Source: an uncultured Flavobacteriaceae bacterium (lineage in GTDB: Bacteria > Bacteroidota > Bacteroidia > Flavobacteriales > Flavobacteriaceae). Taken from it: 64,000 nucleotides of DNA. The first letter of the stretch is position 1, and the number at the start of each line of letters is the position of its first letter. The position numbers and the translations under genes were made by a program. Positions 28,117 through 34,530 of the stretch are shown in pieces. Location: NCBI GenBank assembly GCA_937944485.1, contig CALDYU010000012.1, positions 1 to 64,000 of the forward strand, read 5' to 3'. The notes under the pieces are model-generated. The model was not told the DNA's origin. It searched no databases and saw nothing but the letters and a program-made list of their open reading frames with translations.

Positions 28117-31100
28117 TTAGTCTACCTTAACCCGGACACCTTCAGAATGACTGCTAAATTCAGGGGCATACATGCTTTGAATGCTCGTAATTCCATTACT
28201 AAAATTCCCAGCGTTATTTACTCTTAGGTCATATTCGAATATATAAACACCTTTGGGTAAATAATCAAAGAAAAAATTGGTGCTGGCATCTTTCGTACTT
28301 TCATAGTAGCCCAAACCGTCTTGCCATTTATATTTGGAGATGACGTTTATTGGTTCAAAACCTGCTGCTCGCATGTCTTTCATGTGAACAAATTCCATCG
28401 ATCGATCTGCGCGTAATTCAATACGTACTCGTACTAAATCACCAACCTTTAAAGCAGTCTTGCTTGTGATTTCTGAGATCTCTTCCCCCGTATCAGTGTT
28501 CTTTTTTAGAAAAAGTTTCTTTTTCAATTGTAATGGAGTTTCTGCCGAGGTAATTTTATCTAAATCTTCAAAGTATTGCCAGTACAATGCTCCCCAAGCG
28601 ATACCCTTTCCTTTTTTGCTGATTTGAACTTCAGCCATTTCAGGTTTTACTTCTGCACCTGGCCATGATGTTTTATAGTAACCTGTACCGGCTTCAACTT
28701 TTACATTTTCTAGTTTAGAGGGTTCTATTTTTTTACTACCTACCAAAACTTCAACAGCATCAGTAATTGATAACCAATCACTACCTTGAAGCAATAAAGC
28801 ATACACCGCTTCAGTAGTTGCTTTGGTGGTTTTCCATTGATTGGTTTGCTTATTCTTCAACAACCAGATTTTAAGATTGTCAACAGTCGTAATATCTTCG
28901 GGCGTGATTTCAGCGAACGCTTCAATCAAAAGTGATTGTGTTTCAATAGGCGCTTGGTACCAGTACCAAGAGTTGGTATTATTCTTCCAATACATTCCTA
29001 ATTCTTCCGAAGTGATACTATTCTCTTCTAAAGCGCGCAAAATCTTTGCGGCTGTTTTAGCATCTTTAGCTCGGTGCATAATTAAGGATAACATTCCTTG
29101 AGTATATAATTTTTTGTTTTTCCAGTACTTGCGCGCTTGCGCCTTATAATATGCCGTTATTTCATCAACTTTGTTCGAAGTTTTGATATCCTTAAAAAAG
29201 CTACGCATATAGAGATAATGAATCTGCGTGTTACTCAAATGATCATCATTTAAATCATCAGCATACTTTTTCATTTGGTTGTACTCTTTTACAAATTCGC
29301 CGTCTAAATAACGAATTGCTTTTTCAATCATGCGGTTTTGGTCACTGAGTATGGCCGAAGTGACCGAAAGGTGCTTTAGGTGTCCTAAACCAGAAATGAT
29401 ATGCTGGGTAATGTAGCGATTATCAGGTCCGCCATTAAACCAAGACCACGCTCCAGAACCTTTTTGATTTTGCTTTAGTTTATTGAGCGCAATTGCTTGC
29501 TCGTTTTTCATTTTATTCAAATTAAATAAGAGGGCGATACGCTTTTTCTGTTCGGTTTCAGATTGCGCATCGCGTACCCACGGCGTCTCTTGAATAAGTA
29601 GCGATTTTAACTCTTGGTTCTTTTCTAAATTGCTCACCAAAGCATCTGAATTTGCCCACTGTTTAAAGACATCTTGAATTCTCGGATTGCTATTTGCGAT
29701 ATGAGAGGCGAGCGAATTCGCATAATATTTCGAAAATGTTTGCTCATTACATTCATACGGATACTCCATCAAATAGGGGAGTGCCTGCACTGCATACCAA
29801 GCCGGATTGCTGGTCATTTCTAAGGTGAGTTTATGGTGCTTCAGCGTAGGTCGCTGAGCGGAGCCGAAGGGAGCCGAAGACGTGTTCTTTAACTTATCTA
29901 AAGTAAAGGTTTTTGTTTGGTCGCTACGTACCCACATTGGTAAGGTCTCCGTAACTAACATGCGATTGGTTAATACGGGGAGTAGATTTTGCTCCCCATC
30001 ACTAAAATCACCTGCTTTTGCGGCAACCGTGTACTGAACTGCCTGAATTCCTTCAGGAATTTTTAATCGCCAAGAAACTTGGGTATTGCCTAAGGAATCG
30101 ACTTCGAAGTCCCCCTCTGTCTGCGGCATCTCCCTCGAAGGGAGAGAAAGCAACAGTTTTTTTGAAATATCTAGTCCAGTAACAGCATCAGCTAATTCTA
30201 ATTTCGCTCGCCCTGAAAGGGTCTTCTTCGTGAGATTTGCAATTTTAGTACTGATAATAATTTCATCGCCTTCACGTAAAAAGCGCGGTGCATTTGGGAT
30301 GACCATGAGCTCTTTTTGCGTAACCGTTTCTAGAGTCCTTAGGGCACTTTCTAAGTTTTTAGTATGGGCTAACAATTGCAACTTCCATTTGGTTAATGCT
30401 TCTGGAGTGGTAAAACTAAATGACACATTACCTTCTTGGTCTGTTTTTAAATGCGGAAAGAAAAAAGCATTTTCTTGCAGGTTTTTGCGGATTTTTACAT
30501 TAGAAAAATCGGTTGATTTTTCTTTATTATTTTCAGGAGCGTTAGGCGGAGGAGGTGCACTGTCGCTATCACTGTTTATTGTTACCCCTGCAACCCTACC
30601 TTGTAAAACATTCGAAACATCTTCTGATTCAACGGTTACGACCGAGCCTGTCATGCTTTTTTTTGTTTTAGTTGCATAGGCCATAACGACTACTTCTTCC
30701 AAAGCATCGGAATCTTCATTCATATAAATTTTGAAAAAATTATCCTTTGCTATTTTTTTATTGGTACTGACAAAACCTATATAGCTAAACTCTAAGGTTT
30801 GGCCTTTTTTAACTTTGATTGAAAAGTTACCATCAAAGTCGGTTGTTGTCCCTTCGGTAGTCCCTTTTATGACTACATTCACACCAGGTAATGGCTGGCC
30901 ATTTTCGTCATAAATAGTGCCATCGACATATCCTTCAGGAACATCTTTGCTTGAATAAAATTGCGAGGTTCGACTTGCTTTTATACGTCTTAAATAATTT
31001 CTTCTTGCGTAGTAGTTATTTTCGATTGACAACCCAAACCAATTGAAACTATCGTAGCTATAATCATTTACTAAAGGTGCATGTACAAATTCTGATTGCA

Positions 31101-34100
31101 CTCTAAAATGGGTAGTACCAAAACTAGTATTGCCATTACAATTGACTTGTGAATAATAAGAAACTTTCGCTAGAGGATTAAAATACCAGATGTGGGGTTT
31201 AAAAGCATCAAGAGATGCATCATACATATTCGCTAGTAATTCGGCGGCTACTTGTTCTCCTTTTGCACCTTTTATTTTAAATGTCCAAGTTTCATCAACA
31301 CCAGGCTGCAACTTATTTCTAAAAGTGGACGCTTCGATTTCCAAATCTGTTTTAGGGTAAGGAACATTGATTCTTATTTTTCCGGTATGAAAGGAATTAA
31401 ATTTGGTAAAACTATAAGTAACTGCAAATCCTCCTAAATCAGTAGCTAAAACAGGTATTTTGAAATGTTTAGTGTCTTTATTCAATTGAATCAGTCGACT
31501 TTCAATAATTTTTTTATCCTTTTCAATATAAACCATGAGGTTTAAATTCTCGGCTGCGGTGCTTAGCGAAATTTTAGCATCTTCTCCCGGTTTATATTGT
31601 AGCTGATCTGTTTTAAAACGGATAAGTTGATTGTCAGCGAGCATTTTATCTTTTTCACTATATAGTGAGGTATACGCGATATCTTTTACATTTTGACCAA
31701 ATTTATCTTTGGTTTCAAGTTCAATGATATATTGACCAGACTCCCATTTTTTTATTTTACCTAAACTTATTTCTTTTGATACATTGGTGTCAAAATTTGT
31801 TTGCCAAACTAGGGCCCCTTTATCCCATTGTAAATAGTCATGCTCATTGGTAAAAGGGTCGTGAGGGTATAACTTTTTAAATTCCGTTTTACTAAAACCA
31901 GGATAATCAGGTGCTGGCCATGGCCGTGGGCGAAGCACATTTTCTGGGGATTTTAGTTTGTACATTTTAAGTACGCCTTTTGTGGCAACTTGCTCACCGT
32001 TCAGATTAAAAGAAGAAATGGCAAGTTTATTCTTTTTGGCGCTTTTATCTATCAAGCTTGCCATTTCTATGTTTGCAATTACGGCGTGATAGCCTACAGA
32101 AACAGTTGTTGTTGTGCTATGCGTTTCTCCATTAATATCGGTGACATCTGCGGTTAGTTCATAACTGAAGGTGGGCATATTGTTTTTATCAACACTGTTG
32201 TCTGGTAGGGCTTTAAAATTTATTTCATATTTTCCGGAAGCATCGGTAGTCGTCTCACCATGAGCGATTTCTTGCTCGGCATTGTTAAGATTGGGATAAT
32301 ACCAATAGCACCATCTCGGGTAATTCACCACTCGTTTAACACGATAAGTAACTTTGGCATCAGTAATGTTACTTCCGGCGTAAGCCACAGCTTTACCAAT
32401 TACTGTCACACTATCATTGATTTTATAAGTTTCAGTGACAGGTTCAAAGAAGGTTTCAAATTTCGGACGCTTATATTCCTCAACGGAAAAGTAATGCTCA
32501 TTATTAATTAAACTTGAATCAGCGTCGATTTCTAAGTAATACTCACCTGTAAGACCACTTGCAGGAAGCACAAATTCACCAGAGAACGAACCATAGTCGT
32601 TGGTTTCTAATTCTAATTCGGCAACTTCATCATCATTGACATTATACAAAGTAACAAACACCGATTCTTCAGTCATTAAACGAGACTTCTTTTTATAAGT
32701 TTCTACTAGAATACCCTTGAAATAAAGGGTTTGCCCTGGTCTGTAGATACTTCTATCTGTAAAAACGAAAGACTTTGATGTTACCTCTTCTTTTCTTGGT
32801 TTTCTTTGACTATTTAAATAATAATTACCGAAGTCAGCTTTGTCTTTTTCGTGTGACACATCAATTTGAACATTTGTCCAACTCGTATTCGATTTCTTAT
32901 TAATTATAACTCTTCCTAGTTGGTCAGTGGTTTTTGTAATACTATGTCTCGCGCGATTGTAGTTTTTACTATAATTTATTTTTACCTGAGCCCCTTTAAT
33001 TGGATTTCCATTGTTTCTATCGGTGATTTGGTAGATTTTGCTAATTGGGGTTTCTAATTCAGTAATAGCAATATTTGTTATTTGTACAGTACTGTGAGCA
33101 AAAGTAGTTTGACCATTTGTAGTTTCTACCAATATGATGTATTTGCCATTGGCTAATGCAGGCATGCTAATTTCTGTAGTATGTGATTGGTAATCGCCTT
33201 CATTTTTTAATTTGCTTTTCCATTCTTTCGTTATAGGTAATTTTTTAAGGAACTTCAGTTTCTCCTCTTTCTGATATAATTTATTAAATGCCCTAAGTTT
33301 AGATTGATTTACTTTAAGTGCTGATAAGTTTAGCGAATCTTGATTTTTATATTGCACCAATAACCTAGATATGGTATGAACAGGAATATTTTTTTCAGAA
33401 GTTAGCTGAAGTTCTGTTTTTAGTATTTGCGATTTTATAGCCATACATTTTTCAGCAGCTCTAGAATTAGAATGGTCTTGAATAATAGACTCACATAAGG
33501 CTAATGCTTCTTTTAATTTCCATTGGTATTTATTATTCGTTTTTGAATTATAAGTTTGCCCCCATTTTTGATACAAAAGAGCTATTTCGTAATTATAAAG
33601 TGCTGCATATTTCTTCTGTTTAAGGCCTGCAGCAGAGTTTTTAAGCACTTCGAGTAATTGGTCTTCTTTATTAGAGAAGATAGCATTATCGCGAACATAT
33701 TTTAAACGTTCAATATCAACCTCAACAAAGGCATCGATGGTGCCGTTTTTCAAATGAAAATCGAGCAGTTGCTGATATATAGCTAATGCTTTTGCTTGTT
33801 TTGAAGTTTGGTCAGCAGTTTTTATTGACTTTTGTGTAAACTGATAAGCTTCACAAAGGTAATCAGGGTTATTGATTTCAAACTTATTTGCGGGTGTAGT
33901 GATGCTATTCTCAGGGGTTTTGTAAAATGCTAAAGCTGTATGGGCCAGTAAATCATATAATGTAGGGCGATATTTTTCAGAATCTGCTCTTTTATGGAGT
34001 AGTAATTCAAATTCATCAACCTTAATTTGTTGTAATCTCTTTTTTTGTTTTAAAGAGGCATCAAAACGAGTATTAATTTCATCGAATAAAGTACTTAAAT

Positions 34101-34530
34101 CCCATGTTCTGAAATCGGTTGCATCTACTTTAGACTCAGTTTTTGTTCGATTATAAAAGCGGTAACGGTTTTTTTGAAAGTATTGCCAATACAGGTTTGC
34201 CAAATAACTCTCTAATACATTTTTAGTGGGAAATTCGGATTTGGCGATTTCTGATTTGAACTCTTTTATAATTTTGAGTTGTGCATCTTCCTCTAAGATT
34301 AAGGCGAATTTGGACGTATAGAGTAATGCTTTTATCGTTTGGGGGCTATTTTTTTCCTTCTTCGCCTTTTTAGAAATGGTATTGACGAGCGCTAAGGCCG
34401 ATTTTGGAAGTTCATCGAGTTCAAAATTTTCAACTTTTTTCCAAAGAACATTATATTCTTGAGACTCTTGCTGGGCTTGCGCCATATGCGAAAATAGAAT
34501 AGTAACTATAAAGAAAATCGAAGACCTCAT
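28117..34530 (-). CDS. Bacterial alpha-2-macroglobulin family protein with internal CarboxypepD_reg / truncated TonB-plug insertion
   Basis: 2137 aa; signal peptide; MG2-like FVFTDRSIYRPGQTLYFKG; YPYECNEQTFSKYY thioester (CNEQ, plus coords 29740..29751); VDGTIYDENGQPLPGVNVVIKGT...LEEVVVMAYATKTKKSMTGSV...LQGRVAGV. Confidence 0.93.
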   Translation of the reverse strand: MRSSIFFIVTILFSHMAQAQQESQEYNVLWKKVENFELDELPKSALALVNTISKKAKKEKNSPQTIKALLYTSKFALILEEDAQLKIIKEFKSEIAKSEFPTKNVLESYLANLYWQYFQKNRYRFYNRTKTESKVDATDFRTWDLSTLFDEINTRFDASLKQKKRLQQIKVDEFELLLHKRADSEKYRPTLYDLLAHTALAFYKTPENSITTPANKFEINNPDYLCEAYQFTQKSIKTADQTSKQAKALAIYQQLLDFHLKNGTIDAFVEVDIERLKYVRDNAIFSNKEDQLLEVLKNSAAGLKQKKYAALYNYEIALLYQKWGQTYNSKTNNKYQWKLKEALALCESIIQDHSNSRAAEKCMAIKSQILKTELQLTSEKNIPVHTISRLLVQYKNQDSLNLSALKVNQSKLRAFNKLYQKEEKLKFLKKLPITKEWKSKLKNEGDYQSHTTEISMPALANGKYIILVETTNGQTTFAHSTVQITNIAITELETPISKIYQITDRNNGNPIKGAQVKINYSKNYNRARHSITKTTDQLGRVIINKKSNTSWTNVQIDVSHEKDKADFGNYYLNSQRKPRKEEVTSKSFVFTDRSIYRPGQTLYFKGILVETYKKKSRLMTEESVFVTLYNVNDDEVAELELETNDYGSFSGEFVLPASGLTGEYYLEIDADSSLINNEHYFSVEEYKRPKFETFFEPVTETYKINDSVTVIGKAVAYAGSNITDAKVTYRVKRVVNYPRWCYWYYPNLNNAEQEIAHGETTTDASGKYEINFKALPDNSVDKNNMPTFSYELTADVTDINGETHSTTTTVSVGYHAVIANIEMASLIDKSAKKNKLAISSFNLNGEQVATKGVLKMYKLKSPENVLRPRPWPAPDYPGFSKTEFKKLYPHDPFTNEHDYLQWDKGALVWQTNFDTNVSKEISLGKIKKWESGQYIIELETKDKFGQNVKDIAYTSLYSEKDKMLADNQLIRFKTDQLQYKPGEDAKISLSTAAENLNLMVYIEKDKKIIESRLIQLNKDTKHFKIPVLATDLGGFAVTYSFTKFNSFHTGKIRINVPYPKTDLEIEASTFRNKLQPGVDETWTFKIKGAKGEQVAAELLANMYDASLDAFKPHIWYFNPLAKVSYYSQVNCNGNTSFGTTHFRVQSEFVHAPLVNDYSYDSFNWFGLSIENNYYARRNYLRRIKASRTSQFYSSKDVPEGYVDGTIYDENGQPLPGVNVVIKGTTEGTTTDFDGNFSIKVKKGQTLEFSYIGFVSTNKKIAKDNFFKIYMNEDSDALEEVVVMAYATKTKKSMTGSVVTVESEDVSNVLQGRVAGVTINSDSDSAPPPPNAPENNKEKSTDFSNVKIRKNLQENAFFFPHLKTDQEGNVSFSFTTPEALTKWKLQLLAHTKNLESALRTLETVTQKELMVIPNAPRFLREGDEIIISTKIANLTKKTLSGRAKLELADAVTGLDISKKLLLSLPSREMPQTEGDFEVDSLGNTQVSWRLKIPEGIQAVQYTVAAKAGDFSDGEQNLLPVLTNRMLVTETLPMWVRSDQTKTFTLDKLKNTSSAPFGSAQRPTLKHHKLTLEMTSNPAWYAVQALPYLMEYPYECNEQTFSKYYANSLASHIANSNPRIQDVFKQWANSDALVSNLEKNQELKSLLIQETPWVRDAQSETEQKKRIALLFNLNKMKNEQAIALNKLKQNQKGSGAWSWFNGGPDNRYITQHIISGLGHLKHLSVTSAILSDQNRMIEKAIRYLDGEFVKEYNQMKKYADDLNDDHLSNTQIHYLYMRSFFKDIKTSNKVDEITAYYKAQARKYWKNKKLYTQGMLSLIMHRAKDAKTAAKILRALEENSITSEELGMYWKNNTNSWYWYQAPIETQSLLIEAFAEITPEDITTVDNLKIWLLKNKQTNQWKTTKATTEAVYALLLQGSDWLSITDAVEVLVGSKKIEPSKLENVKVEAGTGYYKTSWPGAEVKPEMAEVQISKKGKGIAWGALYWQYFEDLDKITSAETPLQLKKKLFLKKNTDTGEEISEITSKTALKVGDLVRVRIELRADRSMEFVHMKDMRAAGFEPINVISKYKWQDGLGYYESTKDASTNFFFDYLPKGVYIFEYDLRVNNAGNFSNGITSIQSMYAPEFSSHSEGVRVKVD
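29845..29882. repeat. Short dispersed-repeat-like sequence inside the macroglobulin CDS
   Basis: GTAGGTCGCTGAGCGGAGCCGAAGGGAGCCGAAGACG; contains GGTCGCTGAGCGGAGCCGAAGG, encoding SSAPFGSAQRP on the minus strand. Confidence 0.55.
30110..30146. repeat. Second short palindromic-repeat-like sequence inside the macroglobulin CDS
   Basis: CCCCCTCTGTCTGCGGCATCTCCCTCGAAGGGAGA; internal stem TCTCCC-TCGAA-GGGAGA; encodes SLPSREMPQTEGD on the minus strand. Confidence 0.5.

Follow-up and report, generated by a model that had tools for sequence, protein, structure and literature searches.

How do short palindromic sequences come to be translated inside a protein gene, and what carries them there? The question is raised by a bacterial alpha-2-macroglobulin (A2M) gene in the 64-kb window of contig CALDYU010000012.1 analyzed here, which was studied together with the 3.41-Mb genome to which it belongs (G000) and a genus sample comprising 15 genomes, G000 included, with A2M orthologues available from 14 genus genomes. 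The gene (28117..34530, minus strand) comprises a 2137-aa ORF displaying the Pfam domains MG2, A2M_BRD, A2M, and bMG10. It also contains a stretch composed of a CarbopepD_reg and a SusC/RagA N-terminal-like region (residues 1202-1323; window positions 30562..30927), which separates the bait-region domain from the A2M domain and matches the structures of SusC homologues, e.g., 8aa4.

The first-pass annotation had described two palindrome-like segments read through in frame in this gene, and both are indeed found inside the A2M ORF, translated as it had proposed. Segment 1 encodes SSAPFGSAQRP (residues 1551-1561; 29848..29880, minus strand) in the in-frame translation and contains the core of a palindromic element, so-called element A, which reads CTGAGCGGAGCCGAAG on the plus strand (29854..29869). 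The generalized core, CTGAGCGNAGYCGAAG, is found in 26 copies in the 3.41-Mb genome of origin versus 0 reversed controls, and in 11 of the 15 genus genomes, again with 0 reversed controls, excluding chance as the source of the segment 1 core. Segment 2, referred to as element B, encodes SLPSREMPQTEGD (residues 1462-1474; 30109..30147, minus strand). The proposal that both segments are dispersed palindromic repeats therefore holds for segment 1 within its own genome, whereas the segment 2 23-mer, CCCCTCTGTCTGCGGCATCTCCC, has no second copy there at up to three mismatches and qualifies as a repeat only across the genus. The linker-like positions assigned to the two segments are borne out by the length variability of the sites, their location in loops being judged from indel tolerance. 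The picture of two inserts placed around one domain has to be abandoned, given a third element in the same gene, a degenerate element A (29340..29365, plus strand; GGTCACTGAGTATGGCCGAAGTGACC) with a perfect 7-bp outer stem, variants in the orthologues and the in-frame translation VTSAILSDQ, and given the copies present in many housekeeping genes.

The codon alignment of the 14 genus orthologues delimits the insertion proper of segment 1 as 24 bp (29851..29874, minus strand) encoding APFGSAQR, present in the A2M genes of G000 and G006 and absent in the other 12. The expectation that relatives lack exactly the inserted residues is thus confirmed for eight residues of segment 1; for segment 2, clean insertion boundaries cannot be drawn because the loop is hypervariable. 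G005, the sister species of G000, does not carry the 24-bp insertion, the G000/G005 grouping being supported at 100/99 in the A2M tree and at 0.989 in a tree built from segments of housekeeping genes. The identical stretch between G000 and G006 at segment 1 spans 32 nt, with surroundings ~80% identical, as in other pairs, and A2M genes ~71% identical overall. Horizontal transfer was considered as the origin of the common insertion and set aside, the windowed identity showing no increase in the flanks; the alignments therefore favor parallel insertions at the same position over recent transfer, and an ancient gain followed by losses is a conceivable alternative. The uninserted site of G013 reads CTTCGACTACGCTCAG, which is the exact core, reached by substitution alone. 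A core-like target was also considered as a general insertion rule and dropped: the empty A2M site resembles the core, but the empty PurL and SerA sites do not.

Element A consists of the 16-bp core, which reads CTTCGRCTNCGCTCAG on the opposite strand, and of a flanking stem that varies in sequence but is self-complementary. The genus stretches that were fetched comprise 127 rows of element A copies in context. Of 124 genus copies, 85% have complementary bases at -1/+1 and 81% at -2/+2, compared with 32% and 31% for shuffled partners (z = 12.7 and 11.9), and the pairing is preserved in the copies located in ORFs of ≥190 aa (77% and 92%). In copies close to genes encoding a GIY-YIG nuclease, described below, the pairing extends over four positions. 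These GIY-linked copies (n = 205) display the consensus GGTGG before the core, with G at position -5 in 195 of them, and as single-stranded DNA a GIY-linked copy folds into (i) an outer stem, (ii) an asymmetric internal loop, and (iii) a GC-GNA-GC mini-hairpin (z = -3.3). The element A copy in A2M has lost this fold and folds no better than its shuffles (z = +0.8).

The insertion of element A into coding sequence is not confined to A2M. In G000, 11 of the 26 copies fall within ORFs of ≥190 aa, and the genus as a whole contains 38 such copies, using four of the five stop-free reading frames. The hosts of in-frame copies, at sites often common to several species, include PurL, whose identity is confirmed by solved relatives, and the proteins that we take, by sequence recognition alone, to be LeuS, MetG, MetH, GltX, HemW, ArgS, ArgD, and a SerA-type dehydrogenase. 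Orthologue alignments disclose both empty and filled sites in PurL, HemW, SerA, MetG, LeuS, MetH, and GltX; in PurL the insertion comprises exactly 24 bp, AGCCCCTTCGGCTCCGCTCAGGGC, with a GCCC/GGGC stem, and nine relatives have nothing at this position. Single copies in A2M and PurL add eight residues, and pairs add more. Over all aligned segments, related cores amount to 58 matches versus 2 reversed controls, and 12 sites are filled in anywhere from 2 to 7 genomes; LeuS column 303, counted among these sites, is probably a native motif that has been conserved. Diverged element variants fill the MetG site in 7 genomes and the third A2M site in 6.

Two further observations concern individual loci. 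The LeuS of G005 (a 1277-aa ORF; L226, G005:C5:90400-91500) contains several in-frame hairpin inserts of the CCTCCCAAGGAGG type in one loop, representing a third palindrome family. At a locus of the window's own genome (L026, G000:C33:28290), an element copy directly follows what, from its appearance only, we presume to be the 3' end of a tRNA gene.

The two remaining elements of A2M differ in their relation to element A. The loop of the third element carries recognizable element variants in six orthologues (G001, G003, G004, G005, G006, and G013), including an inverted pair of element A in G006 that encodes ASATLSDQYAEAERSRS. Segment 2, in turn, represents another palindrome family, equally tolerated in coding sequence and comprising a hairpin, TCTCCCTCGAAGGGAGA (30129..30145), which forms a 7-bp stem in the single-strand fold, followed by ATGCCGCAGACAGAGGGGG. 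In G005 and G003 the same A2M loop holds the B palindrome, which in G005 remains foldable despite changes to its stem, and no B palindrome was seen there in the orthologues other than those of G000, G005, and G003. Elsewhere in the genus, element B copies are found in MetH of G003 and in intergenic DNA of G001 (L043) and G003 (L044), and a degenerate B pattern matches once in each of four genus genomes. A partner gene for element B was not found, and no Rfam family matches the region.

Element A, on the other hand, does have a candidate partner. Its copies cluster tightly around a gene encoding a 104-aa, single-domain GIY-YIG protein (G000:C21:71601-71912; PF01541, E = 1.2e-17), whose nearest solved relatives are the UPF0213 proteins 1ZG2 and 1YWL, with 1ZG2 as the best PDB match (E = 3.5e-15). 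The putative catalytic residues Y6, Y16, R26, E63, and N93 are invariant in 66 GIY-YIG sequences. Among homologues sharing at least 60% identity, 87 of 96 loci have a core no more than 300 bp away, and 68 have one on both sides, versus 1 of 96 in the far flanks of the same loci; homologues below 40% identity, which serve as an internal negative control, have a core in only 2 of 10 loci. Counts of words shared between upstream and downstream flanks also gave many matches when the flanks were exchanged among loci, because all loci share one repeat, and the far-flank and distant-homologue controls were relied on instead. The sole Rfam match near the GIY-YIG loci falls far below the gathering score.

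The abundance of the repeat follows the same gene. Across 151 Flavobacteriaceae genomes, the 62 with the GIY-YIG gene average 8.45 copies and the 89 without it 1.06, a difference of ~8-fold (Mann-Whitney p = 2e-10, uncorrected for kinship, with nearly every genome drawn from a different genus). In the window's genus, the four genomes with zero copies are all devoid of the gene. The correspondence has exceptions: no GIY-YIG match was found in G010 (18 copies) or in G002 (8 copies; a genome only 57% complete), nor in six genomes of the family that hold 5-13 copies.

The named hosts of the GIY-YIG gene are mostly Bacteroidota, including Maribacter, Arenibacter, Flagellimonas, Aquimarina, Winogradskyella, and Chryseobacterium. 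The same gene with core-like repeats is also present in single MAGs assigned to Cloacimonadota, Electronema, and Ignavibacteriales (L340, L354, and L356), reflecting either transfer between phyla or binning error. Some core-less loci have palindromes of another kind but similar outline on both sides. One such family, comprising TCGATACA, a variable hairpin and CACTCG, brackets the GIY-YIG genes of L157, L169, L174, and L175, a pattern that suggests matched enzyme-repeat pairs. Two GIY-YIG homologues of G003 (L397 and L410, contig C322) are located inside open frames of 529 and 544 aa and are not stand-alone genes.

We consider it probable that element A is a short mobile palindrome that inserts into the chromosome, protein genes included, and is most likely spread by the UPF0213-type GIY-YIG nuclease whose gene it flanks. 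We infer a mobilizing role of the nuclease and a cut-and-copy mechanism in which (i) the enzyme would recognize the hairpin or a core-like target, (ii) it would cut this target, (iii) the repair of the break would copy an element from elsewhere into the cut, as in homing, and (iv) selection would keep the frame-preserving insertions in tolerant loops. Proteins would acquire short inserts in this manner because an insertion of multiple-of-three length in a loop is tolerated.

The association between gene and repeat could equally arise from a gene that targets pre-existing repeats. According to this main rival explanation, the repeats spread by other means, with the GIY-YIG gene as a passenger of the homing type, cutting the repeat and inserting itself at that place, in keeping with classical GIY-YIG homing enzymes, which insert at their own cut site, and with the several copies that usually bracket the gene. 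IS elements that target REPs are, moreover, described (PMC1525189). We nevertheless regard a passenger as unlikely, since copy number across genomes follows the presence of the gene and all four zero-copy genomes of the genus are devoid of it, a correspondence that a passenger need not strictly produce. Less likely still is a history in which each site was filled once in an ancestor and passed on by vertical descent, with frequent loss and little mobility today: the diverged variants at several genus-wide sites, among them those of MetG and the third A2M element, fit old and drifting insertions, but segment 1 is identical over its 32 nt in two non-sister species with an overall A2M identity of only ~71%, and the sister of one carrier lacks it.

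Spread by the nuclease also has to be weighed against the possibility that element A is an ordinary REP element moved by a RAYT (Y1 tyrosine transposase), with which it shares the size class, the inverted pairs, and the occurrence of both intergenic and intragenic copies. GTAG REPs are thought to be moved by RAYTs (PMC3733652, PMC3116915). Neither G000 nor eight other genus genomes encode the Y1 transposase domain (PF01797), and six of these eight contain the repeat, so that G000, G001, G004, G006, G008, G013, and G014 are all carriers without Y1_Tnp; 28 of the 30 Y1 loci of the genus have no core nearby, and the GTAG end tag is missing. The RAYT was accordingly rejected as the mobilizer, and we hold this origin to be very improbable. 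That no mobility is involved, and hypervariable loops drifted to similar sequence or grew by slippage at hairpins, finds some support in the indel-rich sites, the core-like empty A2M site and the G013 core, but is hardly credible against the same 16-mer recurring throughout the genome, both within unrelated genes and in intergenic DNA, as well as beside GIY-YIG genes, the exact 24-bp gain with its stem in PurL, and the exclusion of chance by the controls.

In-frame palindromic repeats are already known, whereas neither the sequence of element A nor a link between such repeats and a GIY-YIG gene was found in the open-access literature searched. Besides Rickettsia, Di Nocera et al. 2013 (PMC3733652) name Opitutus terrae, Thauera, and Xanthomonas, among others, as bacteria with intragenic GTAG and CGTC REPs; the first-pass annotation had suggested a second lineage with coding-tolerant palindromes after Rickettsia, and element A therefore represents a further lineage, not the second. 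The same survey distinguishes two REP super-families, of which only the GTAG REPs have a candidate mobilizing enzyme, the CGTC REPs being devoid of a dedicated transposase, and files RPE-4 and RPE-6 under the latter (PMC3733652).

Like the Rickettsia palindromic elements (RPEs), element A is a short palindromic repeat located in frame, at tolerated sites of housekeeping and other protein genes, and missing from orthologues, as observed in A2M, PurL, and other gene segments. It differs in its sequence and host phylum, in the greater length of RPE-1, and in having a core that is conserved and a GIY-YIG gene linked to it. Element A works like an RPE without being filed as one, the likeness being one of behavior. 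Compared to the GTAG REP/REPIN-RAYT systems, it shares palindromes of 20-40 bp, inverted pairs, the flanking of a presumed mobilizing gene, and occasional intragenic copies, but the linked gene encodes a GIY-YIG nuclease instead of a RAYT, an asymmetric internal loop surrounds the GCGNAGC mini-hairpin, and no unpaired GTAG end tetranucleotide was found in the flanks of the 124 genus and 205 GIY-linked copies. The CGTC REPs, defined by a CGTC (or TGTC, CCTC) end tag, a stem of 8-9 bp and a loop of 4-5 bp (PMC3733652), resemble element A in being palindromes with intragenic copies and with Bacteroidetes among the reported phyla; no such tag is found at the ends of element A, whose core and flank consensus differ, and a candidate enzyme is available for element A whereas no transposase is known for the CGTC REPs.

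The nuclease itself compares with the UPF0213 proteins 1ZG2 and 1YWL, deposited as hypothetical proteins, in being a single-domain GIY-YIG protein of ~100 aa with the putative catalytic Tyr, Arg, Glu, and Asn. The repeat-linked subclade stands apart in that its gene is embedded in palindromic repeats and in that a further C/N motif is conserved at the C-terminus, beyond the stretch matching 1ZG2. The chances seem about even that element A exemplifies a class of short mobile palindromes, present in Bacteroidota and a few further phyla, that a free-standing GIY-YIG endonuclease drives as a counterpart of REP/RAYT with an unrelated enzyme, and that repeatedly write new in-frame loops into essential proteins at recurrent sites. 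Next to the RAYTs, a GIY-YIG nuclease linked to a repeat family would provide another enzymatic route of repeat mobilization, and recurrent in-frame insertion in aminoacyl-tRNA synthetases, PurL, MetH, and A2M is a route to longer loops in essential proteins.
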